Positions 18,394-27,557 of a stretch of DNA of 51,967 nt are shown here, piece after piece (the first letter of the stretch is position 1; every line of letters starts with the position of its first letter). The DNA lies in NCBI GenBank assembly GCA_018266765.1, contig JAFDZU010000008.1, positions 1-51,967 of the forward strand, written 5' to 3'. The notes under the pieces were generated by a model. That model worked only from the letters and a program-made list of their open reading frames with translations. It did not search any database and was not told the origin of the DNA. The DNA comes from Bacteroidota bacterium (GTDB lineage Bacteria; Bacteroidota; Ignavibacteria; Kapaibacteriales; UBA961). Made by a program: the position numbers and the translations under genes.

Positions 18394-20154
18394 ATGCTGA
18401 ATTTTACTCGGCACGTTGTTATTTTACTATTAATAAGTGTTTTTTCATGCAATTCACAATCAGATTCGAATCAGAAGATTCAATCAACTGTTTCTGAGCC
18501 ACCACAAACACAATACACCAAAAGTGATAGTACAGCAGCTATTTCTATTCTACAATCAAGGTTACAGCAAATAATCACTAATTCTAAACTTAATAAATCA
18601 AAGTACTCGCTTATGGTGTATTCTATGGATGCACATAAAACGTATTTTGAAAAGAATCCTTATTCTGCTTTAACTCCAGCTTCAACTACAAAATTATTTT
18701 CTACTTTTGCGGCCTTTGTTACTTTAGGTGGGAATTATGGAGTCCCGACAACTGTTTATTCAGATGCACCAATTCAAAATGGAATTATCAATGGTAATCT
18801 TTATCTTGTGGGTCATGGTGATGCACTGTTAAACACAACGGATATTGAGGAACTAGCCGACCAAATAACTAAACTTGGTGTAAAAAAAATCACTGGAAAA
18901 ATTTATGGAGACGGCACTTACTTTGATAATTTAACCGAACGCCATATTTACAGTGGAGACCATGAAGTTGTAGAGTCAATGCCTCCAATAACTGCTCTTG
19001 GAATTAATCGAAACACGGTAACAGTAATGGTAAGTCCAGGTAATCCACCTAATGTTCAAACGATTCCACCATCAGATGCTTTTACTATAAATAGTTCAAC
19101 TCAAACTCGTTCTGTAATTCCTAAAGTACCAACTCCTAAACAATCCATTAAGAATAAACGACCTAAAAAAACGATTATTAAACGAAAATCAACACCTGGG
19201 AAACCGGTAAAAAAGAAATCTTCAAAATCTAAACGACATTCTTCACTTGAAAATTCTCAATATGACCCTGAGCAAGATATTCATAATTTAGGGGACGCTC
19301 CTCCGGCTCCAAAAGGTGGAAAGAAACGCTCGAAGAGTACATCAAAAGGTGCGGCTTGTATTGTCAGCTCTCAAACTATTGCAACAGGAGAACAGATTTT
19401 TTCAGTAAGAGGGTCAGTTCCACGCGGTGGACTTTATACTCGATATTTTGTCATTAACAGGCCGGAACTTGCAGCAGCGGGAACACTTCGTAATCGCCTT
19501 GAATCAGGTGGAGTTTATGTCGTTGGAGGAATTGCTGTACAGGCAAAACCAACGTCAGCACAACAAATTGCAGAATTCAAACGTCCGATTGCGGAAATCA
19601 TTAGTTACCTTAATAAAAATAGTGATAATTACCTTGCTGAGCATATATTTAAAATGATCGGTGCGGCAGCGGGAGGACAAACCCAAACTGCTAAAAAATC
19701 AGTCGAAGTAATCACTCAAGCACTTGAAAAAGAAGGAATATCTACGGAAGGTTTATGTATCAATGACGGTTCGGGTTTGTGTCGTCGCAATCTATTTTCG
19801 GCAAATACAGAAGTTGGATTATTAAGTAGAGCTTCAGAACTTCCTTTTTTTATGGAATTTGAATCATCTCTTTCACTTGCAGGAGTAGATGGAACGCTTA
19901 GAAAACGAATGAAAGGAACTCCTGCTGAACGAAACCTTCATGGTAAAACAGGTACATTACGTAATACAAGTGCTCTTGCCGGGTACGTTAATACACGAGA
20001 TAATGAGAGACTTTCATTTGCGTTTATTTTTAATGGTGGTAGTGTTGGTCTTTATAAATCAACTGAGAATGAACTCGGTGCTTGTTTAGCTGATTTTAGT
20101 TTAACTGATGCTCTCAAAGAAGTTACTTCACGTTCTAACAGTTTAAAAAAATAA
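18394..20154 (+). CDS. dacB: D-alanyl-D-alanine carboxypeptidase/endopeptidase (PBP4 family)
   Basis: This 586-residue class-C penicillin-binding protein trims or cuts peptidoglycan peptides in the periplasm. Catalytic motifs are STTK (Ser97-Lys100), SDN (410-412) and KTG (518-520). The N-terminus has a lipobox-like VFSC, so it is probably a lipoprotein. A strong ribosome-binding site (GGAGGAAAAGT) fixes the start. An 80-residue insertion at about 239-318, between SxxK and SxN, is very rich in Lys, Ser and Pro (KKKSSKSKRHSS, KKRSKSTSK) and is not part of the usual family core. It heads a probable operon with ruvC and the NUDIX gene. Confidence 0.92.
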   Translation: MLNFTRHVVILLLISVFSCNSQSDSNQKIQSTVSEPPQTQYTKSDSTAAISILQSRLQQIITNSKLNKSKYSLMVYSMDAHKTYFEKNPYSALTPASTTKLFSTFAAFVTLGGNYGVPTTVYSDAPIQNGIINGNLYLVGHGDALLNTTDIEELADQITKLGVKKITGKIYGDGTYFDNLTERHIYSGDHEVVESMPPITALGINRNTVTVMVSPGNPPNVQTIPPSDAFTINSSTQTRSVIPKVPTPKQSIKNKRPKKTIIKRKSTPGKPVKKKSSKSKRHSSLENSQYDPEQDIHNLGDAPPAPKGGKKRSKSTSKGAACIVSSQTIATGEQIFSVRGSVPRGGLYTRYFVINRPELAAAGTLRNRLESGGVYVVGGIAVQAKPTSAQQIAEFKRPIAEIISYLNKNSDNYLAEHIFKMIGAAAGGQTQTAKKSVEVITQALEKEGISTEGLCINDGSGLCRRNLFSANTEVGLLSRASELPFFMEFESSLSLAGVDGTLRKRMKGTPAERNLHGKTGTLRNTSALAGYVNTRDNERLSFAFIFNGGSVGLYKSTENELGACLADFSLTDALKEVTSRSNSLKK

Positions 20155-22372: not shown

Positions 22373-23392
22373 ATGGCAACTCTGACAATCGGTAAAACTA
22401 CAGTTGAGAACGGAATTCTTCTTGCACCATTAGAAGATGTAACTGAACTTCCATTTCGAGTTATAAGTAAACGACTTGGAGCGGATATAGTTTATACAGA
22501 ATTTATATCTTCAGATGGTTTGGTTCATGATGCGCGTCGTTCACTTGAAAAATTACAACTTGCAGATGAAGAACGTCCGGTTGCAATTCAGATATTTGGT
22601 GGTGACATCGAAGTTATGAAAGAAGCGGCACTTATGGCTGAATCAGCCGGGCCTGATTTTTTAGATATCAATTGTGGCTGTTGGGTGAAAAATGTAGTAG
22701 CACGTAATTCCGGCGCAGCTTTACTAAAAGATATTCCTGCAATGGCAGCAATGACAAAAGCCCTTGTAGATACCGTAAAATTGCCTGTTACTGTCAAAAC
22801 ACGACTTGGATGGGATAAAAACAATATTGTAATAGTTGATGTTGCAAAACAACTTGAGCAGGCAGGTGCATCTGCCCTAACAGTCCATTGTCGCACGCGG
22901 GATATGGGACACCAAGGCAACGCAGATTGGTCTTGGATTCCAAAAATAAAAGAAGCTGTATCAATACCTATAATATTAAATGGTGATGTAACGGCAGTAG
23001 AACATGTGAAAGAAGCATTTGAAACAACAGGATGTGATGCTGTGATGATAGGACGTGGAGCGATTGGAAATCCATTCATTTTTCGCAGAGCTAAATTATA
23101 TTTAGCGACAGGAGTAATTCCTCCAGAACCATGTGCAGAAGAAAGGGTTACTATTCTGCTTCAACATCTACAACTTTCAATAAATCATAAACCAGAACGA
23201 CGGGCAATTCTAGAATTTAGGAAGTTTTATGGCGGATATTTACGAGGATTATATAATTCCGCTCCTGTAAAACAAGATATCCAACAACTGTTATCTTTTC
23301 CAGAAATAGAAGATCGATTGCACCGTTATCTCGAATTTTTAGCAGAACGAATGGATGTTTTAGAGCATCCTACCGAAGACGCAACAACATAA
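22373..23392 (+). CDS. dus: tRNA-dihydrouridine synthase
   Basis: This 339-residue flavoenzyme reduces uridine to dihydrouridine in the tRNA D-loop. FMN-barrel features include LLAPLEDVTELPFRVISKRL, IQIFGGD, VKTRLGWD and the phosphate-binding VMIGRGAIGNPF. The catalytic cysteine is in NCGCWVKNVV; most relatives read NxGCPxxKV, so the Pro after Cys is Trp here. It most resembles the DusB group. It starts the run dus-tilS-hpt with an 18-bp gap to tilS, so two tRNA-modification genes share a transcript. Confidence 0.93.
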   Translation: MATLTIGKTTVENGILLAPLEDVTELPFRVISKRLGADIVYTEFISSDGLVHDARRSLEKLQLADEERPVAIQIFGGDIEVMKEAALMAESAGPDFLDINCGCWVKNVVARNSGAALLKDIPAMAAMTKALVDTVKLPVTVKTRLGWDKNNIVIVDVAKQLEQAGASALTVHCRTRDMGHQGNADWSWIPKIKEAVSIPIILNGDVTAVEHVKEAFETTGCDAVMIGRGAIGNPFIFRRAKLYLATGVIPPEPCAEERVTILLQHLQLSINHKPERRAILEFRKFYGGYLRGLYNSAPVKQDIQQLLSFPEIEDRLHRYLEFLAERMDVLEHPTEDATT

Positions 23393-23410
23393 TTTAGAGG
23401 ATGAATAAGA

Positions 23411-26400
23411 GTGAAACGAACAAAAAAACAGTCCACATTAGATGTGGAAGCAACACCTATTGAACCACCAAAATCGGTACATAAGAAACGAAAGACAATA
23501 CCTAAACCATTATCAAAGAATTCTATAATTCAAAAGGATGACAGTAATTTTGTTGTTGTAAATGATAAAGCTATTCTTGAACAAGAAGCAAAAGTTGAGA
23601 AGAAAAAGCAGTCTAAAAATGTTAAAAAAGTTGAAGAAAATTCTAAAATTGCACAAACAATATCTTCAAAGAAAAAGATTGTTATTACTAAAACCAATTC
23701 TATTCCAAATAAAGTTGTTATTCCTATAGTCGAAAAAAACAATCCTTTATTAAAACCTACTCCAACTTTACCAAAGATTTCTAAAATTGAAAAACCTGTC
23801 ATATTAGAAACTACTGTCACTAATCACTCTAAATCTTCAATTGAAAGAAAAACTGACATAGCACAAAAACCTAAGTCAGCTTCTTCAAACAGAAGAAAAA
23901 AATCTAAAGAAAATTCTAATCTTAAAAAGAATAAAGAGATTAGTAATTCATCTTTACAAAATAAATCAAATGTTGAAATTAAACCACAATTGGTTCAACA
24001 GCAAAAATCTAATGAATCACCTGCACTAATTAATTCTGAAGAAGTGAATAAAATTCGTCTTCAAGAAATAGAGCAACGATATGGTGGTGAGCAATTCCGA
24101 AAGAAGAATAGAAAACCTATAACTATTAAACCAGTTATAGTTTCTGAAATAAAAACTGTTGAACCAATAGAAAACAACTCTCATATATTGATAGTAGGTA
24201 ATCCTAATCCAAATGTTGAAGAAGTTTCATATAATCAAAATGAGACGAATGAACTTGATGAACCTAAATTAAGTTATTGGCAACAAAGAAGACTTCAAAA
24301 AAAATTAAAACAAAAGTTACAAAAAGATTCAGAATATACTAAGCAAGATGAACTTATAAATTCTGAAAAAAGTTCTGTTGCAACAATTGAATCTAATGAA
24401 GTCATTTATTCAACTAACAAAGTAGAAAAGCCACTTTCTGATGACGACATAGCTCAAAAAGTTAATAATTCAAGTAAGCAAATAGAAAAAAATGAAAAAA
24501 GTGACCTCACTTCAGAAAGCGAACCTCCAGTATTAAGCTATTGGCAACAAAGAAGATTAAACAAAAAAGCAAAACTGCTGCAAATTCGCGAACAACAAAA
24601 TTCAATTAGTTCAATTGATAATGCTACAACTATTGTCTCAGAAAAAAGTATTCAAGAACCTGAACCTCAATCTATCGGTTTACAGAATAATGCTGACAAT
24701 CAATTAACCGAAAAATTAAGTTTTAAAATAGAATCACAAGTAGTTACCGAAGAGGAAGTAAAGGATATTGCTTCGACATCTTCATTAGAGGAATCACCAA
24801 AATTGAGCTACTGGCAACAACGAAGATTGCAAAGAAAACAAAAGAAACAACAACTACAAAATCTAGAAGTTGTTCCTTCTATTGAAGAAAACGATACATC
24901 AATTAAGTCAGAAGTTCCAATCGTAACTATAATCCAATCTAAAACATCAACAATTGAGTTAAATCAAAACAATGCTCCTAATCTTGCTGAAACCCCAGAA
25001 ACAGTTGAAGCAGAACCACGCAAGCTAAGTTATTGGCAACAAAAAAGATTACAAAAAAAACTCAAACAGCAGCAGGAATTAGAACTTAAATTAGCGACTC
25101 AAGATACTGAAAGCAAACCAGAAGAAGCAAGTATAATAGTTCCACCTAAAAGGATTTTACCGTTTCCTCCTGAGAAGGCAATACTCAAGAACGAAAACAA
25201 TCAATTACCCAAAACAAAGAATCATGTTTCAACTGAAATTACTTCCAAACAATTACCTGAGAAACAGGAAGATACAATAGTTGTAAAAGAAAAGAAAATT
25301 TTACCTGTTCCTCCCGATAAATTAAGACAACCTAAGCCTGAAAAATCCAATGAAACCGCTGTTAAAAAGAAATTACCGGTTCCGGCTGATAAACTTTTAC
25401 CTGTAAAAACAGAACAACCATTATCAATAACAGAAAAGAAAATTTTACCTGTTCCGGCACATAAAGTATTACCTATACAGGAAAAAAGAATTCTTCCTAC
25501 GTATGAAAAAATTGATTTAACAAAAATTGATTCTCAGCATGTAAAATCACAGAAAAAAAATCAAAAACCACAATTTCCGAAACGTCCAAAACCTCCATTA
25601 CCAACATTACCCGAAGAATTATTTTCCATTGTTCAGAAGGTTGAAGAATATATAATTAATGAACTTAATGTCCATTCTGACTCAACTATATTATTAGGAG
25701 TTAGCGGCGGAGTAGATTCTATTGCAATGCTTGATATTATGGCGTATATTTCATTAGAACATAATTTTTCAATTCATGTAGCACATTGCAATCACCAATT
25801 ACGGGGTAATGAATCTATGGAAGATGAAAAATTAGTAAGAAGAACAGCTTCTCAATATGGGTTTCACTTCCATCATACGATGCTAAAAGTAGAAGAATTT
25901 GCAGTCAAACATAAGGTCAGTACCGAACATGCCGCACGTACACTCCGGTATCAATTCTTTGAAAAAATGGCAAAAACTACGCAAGCAGATTTAGTGGCTA
26001 CGGCACATACAGCGGATGATTCAGCAGAAACATTCTTACTTAATTTATTGAGAGGGACTGGACTTACGGGCTTAGCAGGAATTCCGGCACGAAGAGAATT
26101 AACTAGAAAAATTAGTATTATCAGGCCAATGCTTACTCTTACTAAAGAAGATTTAATTCATTATGCAACAATCCGAAAATTGTACTGGAGAGAAGATGGT
26201 AGTAATTCTTCACTCATGTATAAACGCAATAAAATTAGACTAAAACTACTTCCAACACTAAAGGAACAGTTTTCACCGGCAATTATTGAAATTCTAAATA
26301 GAACTGCCCGACTTATACATGGAGCAGATAAACTTATTACAGAAAAAGTTGAGAAGCTAATTCCAAAATTGATTAGAAGTTTAGATAAATCTACTGTTGC

Positions 26401-27025
26401 TCTTTCAATCCCCTATTTCGATTCAGTTGATGATTTTCTAAAAGGTGAGATTCTTCAGAAAATATTAATTGATAAATTTCAGTCTCAAACTGTTTCAATG
26501 AATACAATTGATAGAATTATTGCACTTTCACAAAGTTCACTTGGTTCGATTTGCGATATAACACCTACAATCACATCTACTCGTGACCGAAATGAAATCG
26601 TCATTCAAAGAAAAGAAATTTCAAAGGAAATAAATTATACTATTGGAAAAGTTTCTGACCTTAAAACAGAACAATTTGAGATTAAGCTGAAAGAAATTCC
26701 ACGCAAAGATGTTCAATTTACTGAAGATCCTAATCGTGAATTTTTTGATGCCGATTTACTTCCACTATGGCTTACAATACGCCATTGGAACCATGGAGAT
26801 CGTATTCAGCCACTTGGAATGTCGGGTTCAATGACAGTCGGTGATTATCTCACAAATCAAAAAATTTCATTTATTGAACGAAGCAAATGTTTAGTTTTAT
26901 GTGCCGGCTCAGAAGTAGTTTGGATTTGTTCTTTAAGGGCAAGTGATAAATTCAAAGTAACAGCAACCACTAAAAGAGTTATTTCTGCAGAATATATTCC
27001 AATTTCTACACAAAACATCAAATAA
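23411..27025 (+). CDS. tilS: tRNA(Ile)-lysidine synthetase with a giant repeat-rich N-terminal extension
   Basis: The C-terminal 460 residues are a complete TilS, which converts the wobble cytidine of tRNA-Ile(CAU) to lysidine. The ATP PP-loop is SGGVDS at 765-770, followed by HCNHQLRG, AHTADDSAETFLLNLLRG and RKLYWREDGSN, and a TilS C-terminal domain (IRHWNHGDRIQPLGMSG). Ahead of it lie about 740 Lys/Gln/Glu/Ser-rich, probably disordered residues. They hold four copies of LSYWQQ(R/K)RL (starting at 287, 375, 465 and 539) and five of K(K/R)xLPxPxxK (about 580-700). No Met or Cys occurs between the start and residue 773. The start is GTG at 23411; hpt follows 4 bp downstream. Confidence 0.92.
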   Translation: MKRTKKQSTLDVEATPIEPPKSVHKKRKTIPKPLSKNSIIQKDDSNFVVVNDKAILEQEAKVEKKKQSKNVKKVEENSKIAQTISSKKKIVITKTNSIPNKVVIPIVEKNNPLLKPTPTLPKISKIEKPVILETTVTNHSKSSIERKTDIAQKPKSASSNRRKKSKENSNLKKNKEISNSSLQNKSNVEIKPQLVQQQKSNESPALINSEEVNKIRLQEIEQRYGGEQFRKKNRKPITIKPVIVSEIKTVEPIENNSHILIVGNPNPNVEEVSYNQNETNELDEPKLSYWQQRRLQKKLKQKLQKDSEYTKQDELINSEKSSVATIESNEVIYSTNKVEKPLSDDDIAQKVNNSSKQIEKNEKSDLTSESEPPVLSYWQQRRLNKKAKLLQIREQQNSISSIDNATTIVSEKSIQEPEPQSIGLQNNADNQLTEKLSFKIESQVVTEEEVKDIASTSSLEESPKLSYWQQRRLQRKQKKQQLQNLEVVPSIEENDTSIKSEVPIVTIIQSKTSTIELNQNNAPNLAETPETVEAEPRKLSYWQQKRLQKKLKQQQELELKLATQDTESKPEEASIIVPPKRILPFPPEKAILKNENNQLPKTKNHVSTEITSKQLPEKQEDTIVVKEKKILPVPPDKLRQPKPEKSNETAVKKKLPVPADKLLPVKTEQPLSITEKKILPVPAHKVLPIQEKRILPTYEKIDLTKIDSQHVKSQKKNQKPQFPKRPKPPLPTLPEELFSIVQKVEEYIINELNVHSDSTILLGVSGGVDSIAMLDIMAYISLEHNFSIHVAHCNHQLRGNESMEDEKLVRRTASQYGFHFHHTMLKVEEFAVKHKVSTEHAARTLRYQFFEKMAKTTQADLVATAHTADDSAETFLLNLLRGTGLTGLAGIPARRELTRKISIIRPMLTLTKEDLIHYATIRKLYWREDGSNSSLMYKRNKIRLKLLPTLKEQFSPAIIEILNRTARLIHGADKLITEKVEKLIPKLIRSLDKSTVALSIPYFDSVDDFLKGEILQKILIDKFQSQTVSMNTIDRIIALSQSSLGSICDITPTITSTRDRNEIVIQRKEISKEINYTIGKVSDLKTEQFEIKLKEIPRKDVQFTEDPNREFFDADLLPLWLTIRHWNHGDRIQPLGMSGSMTVGDYLTNQKISFIERSKCLVLCAGSEVVWICSLRASDKFKVTATTKRVISAEYIPISTQNIK

Positions 27026-27029
27026 TACA

Positions 27030-27557
27030 ATGCAGATTCACGATAAAAATTTTGAAATTTTCATTACCGCAGATGAAATTCAATCTACTATTAAAAAGCT
27101 GGCCGGATTAATAAATCTTGATTATTCCGATAAAGAGTTAGTACTCGTGATTATCCTAAAAGGTGCTTTTATTTTTGCGGCTGATTTAGTTCGTTCATTG
27201 AATTTCCAAAGTCAAATTGAATTATTATCAGCTAAAAGTTATGGAAAAGAAATAACATCTTCAGGTAATGTTGAAATATCTTTACCGAATTTAAATATTA
27301 AAGGAAAGCATGTACTTATCATTGAAGATATTGTTGATACAGGACTTACCCTATCATCTGTAAAATCTGCATTGAACAAATTTGGACCGCTTTCAATCGA
27401 GATTACGACCCTTATTTCAAAACCTGCAATGCGAAAAATAGAAATAGATGTTAAATATATCGGTATTGAAATTCCACCAGTGTTTATTGTCGGATTTGGA
27501 TTAGATTATGCTGAGCATGGTCGAAATTTACCGGATATTTATGCAATCACATCTTAA
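27030..27557 (+). CDS. hpt: Hypoxanthine phosphoribosyltransferase
   Basis: This 175-residue purine-salvage enzyme makes IMP/GMP from hypoxanthine/guanine and PRPP. The PRPP-binding signature is VLIIEDIVDTGLTL, with the upstream ILKGAFIFAADL loop and the C-terminal VGFGLDYAEHGRNLPDIY. Length is typical. It begins 4 bp after tilS, reproducing the widespread tilS-hpt gene order (ftsH, the usual third member, does not follow). Confidence 0.95.
   Translation: MQIHDKNFEIFITADEIQSTIKKLAGLINLDYSDKELVLVIILKGAFIFAADLVRSLNFQSQIELLSAKSYGKEITSSGNVEISLPNLNIKGKHVLIIEDIVDTGLTLSSVKSALNKFGPLSIEITTLISKPAMRKIEIDVKYIGIEIPPVFIVGFGLDYAEHGRNLPDIYAITS

Follow-up and report, generated by a model that had tools for sequence, protein, structure and literature searches.

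The tilS gene of this genome (G000) encodes a 1204-aa protein in which a motif-complete enzyme follows an N-terminal extension of 742 residues. We interpret the extension, at a confidence that we would call even, as a disordered, net-cationic tether that would grip RNA. Coordinates refer to the window, that is, the whole 51,967-nt stretch of DNA analysed, and the features are as follows.

22373..23392, +, dus, tRNA-dihydrouridine synthase, 18 nt upstream of tilS, a conserved neighbour
23396..23400, +, AGAGG, read from the sequence as a putative Shine-Dalgarno-like element, 10 nt 5' of the GTG
23411..27025, +, tilS, 1204 aa, GTG start, stop codon included (open reading frame and translation)
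23411..25636, +, N-terminal extension, residues 1-742, no Met or Cys, largely disordered by prediction, net charge about +37
23411..24034, +, Lys-rich leader, residues 1-208, net +27
24035..24082, +, conserved block containing RLQEIEQRYGG, residues 209-224, helical by prediction, common to the congener G002
24269..24382, +, motif helix 1, LSYWQQRRLQKKLKQKLQ.., residues 287-324
24533..24610, +, motif helix 2, LSYWQQRRLNKKAK.., residues 375-400
24803..24868, +, motif helix 3, LSYWQQRRLQRKQKK.., residues 465-486
25025..25108, +, motif helix 4, LSYWQQKRLQKKLKQQQELELK.., residues 539-566
25142..25525, +, LPxPxxK repeats, residues 578-705, four clear copies plus a degenerate one
25637..27022, +, TilS enzyme part, residues 743-1204 (domain matches)
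25688..26239, +, PP-loop ATP_bind_3 / TIGR02432 domain, residues 760-943 (profile matches)
26771..26977, +, TilS_C domain, residues 1121-1189 (profile matches)
27030..27557, +, phosphoribosyltransferase (hpt-like by sequence), 4 nt 3' of tilS, a separate gene and conserved neighbour

TIGR02432 matched residues 760-948 at 182.1 bits against a curated cut-off of 93.6 bits, PF01171 (ATP_bind_3) matched with an E-value of 7.6e-50, and the SGGVDS loop lies at residues 765-770. The C-terminal substrate-binding domain was recovered by both PF11734 (29.3 bits; cut-off 22) and TIGR02433 (21.2 bits; cut-off 20.2). By these profiles the protein is a motif-complete TilS, predicted to form lysidine at C34 of tRNA-Ile(CAU), and as a single-copy gene it is the sole match in its genome. 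An in-frame TGA at 23402 is followed two codons later by the GTG start, and the tilS frame of G002 likewise begins with GTG shortly past dus. The gene order dus-tilS-hpt is present in many relatives and mostly kept across the order.

An earlier note on this DNA had described an in-frame TilS extension of about 740 residues that lacks Met and Cys, and this description held. The 742 residues occupy one open frame whose architecture recurs in G002; the other five frames contain 23-95 stops over the same 742 codons, and the codon-position GC of the extension is similar to that of the enzyme part. Met first appears at residue 773 and Cys at residue 793. Ahead of the enzyme, Trp occurs solely in the four LSYWQQ(R/K)RL motifs (positions 290, 378, 468 and 542), and the motif starts given previously (287, 375, 465 and 539) are all exact. 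Of five reported LPxP repeats, four are clear (583, 631, 655 and 679) and the fifth is the degenerate KRILPTYEK; G002 has about eight LPxPxxK copies. The reported lack of an internal ATG can be sharpened, in that no ATG, GTG, TTG or CTG occurs from codon 473 to ATG-773. Since ATG-773 sits past the catalytic SGGVDS loop, translation from any canonical start that yields active enzyme would include at least about 270 residues of the tail.

As a background proteome we used 1322 ORFs from a 1.78-Mb sample covering 48% of the genome. Just one of these had a longer Met- and Cys-free run than tilS, a low-complexity 2445-aa protein that starts like a secreted one. The Met-free state is not conserved, as the G002 tail contains a few Met, and Cys is missing from most, not all, of the relatives' TilS tails. 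We attribute the Met-free state to a composition of the disorder type.

To describe the motif region we used AlphaFold2 without an alignment on a 467-residue chain. Helices were predicted at residues 289-324, 377-400, 467-486 and 541-566, each starting within one or two residues of the motif Ser, with pLDDT blocks reaching 92-95 and cores above 90. The pLDDT was below 50 at 276 of the 467 residues, and the leader was modelled as largely disordered with two weaker helices. Net charge alternates along the chain, with linkers of -5, -5, -8 and -5 and helices of +4, +5, +5 and +3, which bears out for all four copies the reported acidic stretch before and basic helix after each LSYWQQ. The same arrangement was found in every motif instance inspected (15/15, from nine genomes); it recurs in G002 (four copies), in five species of genus g2 (EEKLSRKERRLREWKERKKLKRLQ and close variants), and in G005 and G044.

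The wording LSYWQQ is confined, among 123 genomes of the order, to this genus (G000 and G002); a DNA-pattern search of the same genomes gave three further matches, on contigs other than the TilS contig. Sister genera have one related basic helix of other wording, or none. A search of the genome found the motif in no other of its proteins, and phmmer and profile searches of the PDB with the motif and its profile returned no convincing match, LysRS included.

Comparison with G002, whose TilS frame spans 1355 codons, indicates which parts of the tail are kept. All four motifs are present in identical order, the core LSYWQQ(R/K)RL is invariant in the eight copies of the two species, and copy-specific residues are shared (among them RRLN of copy 2 and KRLQ of copy 4). 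In the alignment the motifs are 70% identical and the linkers 24%, with 52% for the LPxP region, 33% for the leader and 74% for the enzyme; conservation extends to the block RLxEIEQRYGG and the junction QFPKRPKPPLP. About 47% of the identical motif residues are written with different codons in the two species, indicating that the protein itself is kept as the linkers drift. On this comparative evidence the four helical motifs are retained by motif-level purifying selection. The other congener, G001 (92% complete), gave a weak 324-aa PP-loop match (L070, contig C83, 5588-6304) and no full TilS, which is probably an assembly gap.

The extension had been presented as a feature of this protein; it is found on TilS in many relatives and is a trait of the lineage rather than a peculiarity of one gene. 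Open frames were read by hand, a tail being counted where the frame could fit one of about 100 aa. Of the 111 genomes scored in the order, about half had long N-terminal tails: each genome of f1, f4, f7, f9 and f10 that gave a full TilS match, f8 with a single exception, and roughly 20 of 46 f3 genomes, about half of that family being without. Essentially no f2, f5 or f6 genome has one, and the sister orders of the class likewise lack them. A scan of named relatives gave two TilS matches only, both distant. To place the phylum, its members were searched for the FMO protein (PF02327), and 24 of 99, belonging to families f26, f28 and f41, have it; the phylum therefore contains green sulfur bacteria, and the genome probably belongs to the Bacteroidota/Chlorobiota group or close to it.

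Tail length varies between about 100 and 890 residues, and the greater part of the sequence is not conserved. They fall into K-rich, R/D-rich and Q-rich classes of mostly unrelated wording, Lys-rich in AT-rich genomes and built of DDRRDERR-type or AKKPAAK/QNKQ repeats elsewhere. Hydrophobic content is 5-28% in tails versus 33-40% in the enzyme. Of the 35 tails that reach 100 aa or more, 34 are positive in net charge, and the sign is the same in all seven families; the count is not a probability because the sequences are related. Judged from these sequences, the trait conserved across the order is positive charge and disorder, not sequence. In the enzyme tree long-tailed TilS group together without resolving a single origin (7 label changes), and three labelled rows are spurious. 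The apparent 100-155-aa tails of G023, G037 and G063 were rejected as upstream non-coding frame, being rich in Cys, Trp and Arg and without an early start.

Near-perfect short tandem repeats (DDRRDERR, QNKQQP and KKPAAKTTTA) occur in the TilS tails L039, L043, L048 and L053 (genomes G029, G022, G036 and G021, respectively), and such repeats suggest fast repeat expansion within tilS.

Taken as a tether, the tail would work as follows. Lys-rich stretches and the four Ser-capped basic helices would bind tRNA, and probably other RNA too, in a non-specific manner, and the acidic linkers may preserve solubility and adjust how tightly the chain binds. The tail could thereby enrich tRNA-Ile(CAU) around the PP-loop active site and retain TilS where tRNA is. 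Because charge and disorder are conserved order-wide, gripping of RNA or tRNA is favoured over one specific protein partner. The earlier proposal of a multivalent binding platform accordingly survives in its repeated acidic-linker and basic-helix design, with helices under selection, and is less favoured in its appeal to a particular protein. The tether is further supported by the sign of the charge in 34 of 35 tails despite mostly unrelated sequences, by motifs 70% identical to G002 against 24% for linkers, and by the synonymous change (about 47%) at identical motif residues. Four confidently predicted helices, the acidic lead in all 15 instances, the uniqueness of the motif within the genome and the charged disordered tails on other RNA-acting proteins of the genome point the same way.

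Other observations run against the tether. Simple RNA gripping would not require residues as specific as the Trp, Tyr and Gln of the motif, and many TilS function tail-less, those of about half of f3 included. The N-terminal extensions of class IIb aminoacyl-tRNA synthetases have the consensus K...K(K/R)..K. Its strict form occurs in none of the four helices and a relaxed form in helix 3 only, with no tail enrichment over shuffles (p 0.18); together with the lack of a convincing PDB match by sequence, this weighs against the tether.

Tails of this general kind are not restricted to TilS in this genome. An RsmI-like methyltransferase (L120:18210-19724, - strand, contig C40) has a C-terminal tail of about 260 residues made of repeated PPFKKFDDDRRGSG-type and PPFKKFDDDRRGSGEGGDRR units, and long open frames on RsmI-like proteins recur among relatives. 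An RsuA/RluB-like pseudouridine synthase (L099:16784-18139, - strand, contig C19) begins with about 165 disordered residues rich in Gly, Asn, Arg and Tyr. A protein with three S1-domain stretches (L169:16442-18334, + strand, contig C12), probably ribosomal protein S1, has disordered ends, acidic at the N-terminus and rich in Arg and Asp at the C-terminus. Within the window, a D-Ala-D-Ala carboxypeptidase (S13; 18394-20151, + strand) has a Lys-rich insert near residues 250-315 (KRPKKTIIKRKSTPGKPVKKKSSKSK). The lineage decorates several RNA-acting enzymes, and TilS is the most extreme of those seen.

Several other functions were weighed. The tail might be a condensate scaffold, its blocks of opposite charge and the one Trp/Tyr pair per basic helix letting TilS phase-separate with RNA and so regulate or concentrate tRNA maturation. 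The layout does resemble stickers and spacers (helices +3 to +5, linkers -5 to -8), and the Rho of Bacteroides thetaiotaomicron, BtRho, provides a precedent (PMC13269538). We consider this unlikely, as condensation is not visible in sequence, sister genera have a single motif helix or none, and the Rho of this genome is itself tail-less, its open frame being 453 aa long.

Only slightly less probable is that the LSYWQQRRL helix is a four-copy short linear motif docking a putative protein partner, such as another enzyme acting on tRNA or a protein of the ribosome, and that RNA gripping comes second. The invariance of the core in eight copies of two species, the retention of copy-specific flanks and the Tyr-Trp at the helix start, which suggests a binding surface, are what such a motif would look like. 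The restriction of the exact motif to one genus among the 123 genomes of the order, and the different wording of the basic helices in sister genera, argue against it.

A broader proposal, which we hold to be less likely still, gives the TilS of the order a scaffolding role besides catalysis. Its disordered, four-helix tail would organise an RNA-dependent assembly of tRNA, Dus, TilS and perhaps ribosomal proteins, and the tails of the RsmI-like methyltransferase, the pseudouridine synthase and the S1 protein would belong to the same physical network.

Slightly less credible again is a non-adaptive origin, a low-complexity expansion tolerated ahead of an essential enzyme. Lengths from about 100 to 890 residues, the mostly unconserved sequence and the tail-less half of f3 fit such drift. 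Purifying selection on the motifs, the charge sign kept in 34 of 35 tails and the retention of a tail in nearly all members of six families do not. That a separate small gene or a misassembly was wrongly joined to tilS, a reading for which we found no supporting point, is rejected as exceedingly improbable given the single open frame, the absence of a canonical start between codons 473 and 773, the same architecture in an independent congener and the long fused frames of dozens of relatives; the extension is not an artefact.

The TilS tails illustrate clearly how charge and disorder can be conserved without sequence, and they suggest a conserved RNA-gripping device on an otherwise textbook enzyme. 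We found no published description of the extension in the open-licence literature searched, and one may exist elsewhere.

Compared with the bacterial three-domain TilS, the enzyme has the same PP-loop domain, SGGVDS loop, TilS_C domain, single copy and dus/hpt flanks, and differs in its 742-residue disordered N-terminal extension; TilS open frames in sister orders are about 450-520 aa long. TilS-HprT fusions occur in some Firmicutes. There, too, TilS is joined to further sequence, and hpt adjoins tilS here; in this genome, however, hpt is a separate downstream gene and the added part is N-terminal and disordered. Plasmodium TilS also has an N-terminal extension, of 180 residues, predicted to be a bipartite transit peptide to the apicoplast (PMC12069591), a role not expected in a bacterium.

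Condensation of BtRho depends on RNA and is driven by a disordered, KE-rich subdomain (PMC13269538). The TilS tail shares with it alternating Lys/Glu-rich charged blocks and the character of a lineage-specific charged disordered segment with short conserved charged motifs on a conserved RNA enzyme. The enzyme is a different one, and a 301-residue region inside Rho contrasts with a 742-residue N-terminal tail on TilS. The Rho of this genome (contig C37:5804-7060) is without the disordered insertion, unlike Bacteroides Rho.

The nearest mechanistic parallels are eukaryotic. In human LysRS the N-terminal domain is disordered, binds RNA non-specifically and becomes helical upon binding (PMC6213541), and the Lys-rich extension of yeast AspRS touches the anticodon stem and raises charging efficiency (PMC9976931). 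As in these, the TilS extension is N-terminal, basic, disordered and, by model, able to form helix, on an enzyme handling the anticodon region. In contrast, it is much longer, has four Trp-containing repeats and belongs to a bacterial modification enzyme rather than a synthetase. Neither phmmer nor a profile search of the PDB found similarity to the solved LysRS or AspRS extensions; lacking both this sequence link and the class IIb consensus, the likeness is one of mechanism and not of membership. Cationic disordered tRNA-capture extensions are known as a habit of eukaryotic aminoacyl-tRNA synthetases, and a bacterial order in which many members attach tails of this sort to a tRNA-modifying enzyme, some of them as much as twice its size, would offer a natural test series for tail function, from no tail through a plain basic tail and one helix to four helices.
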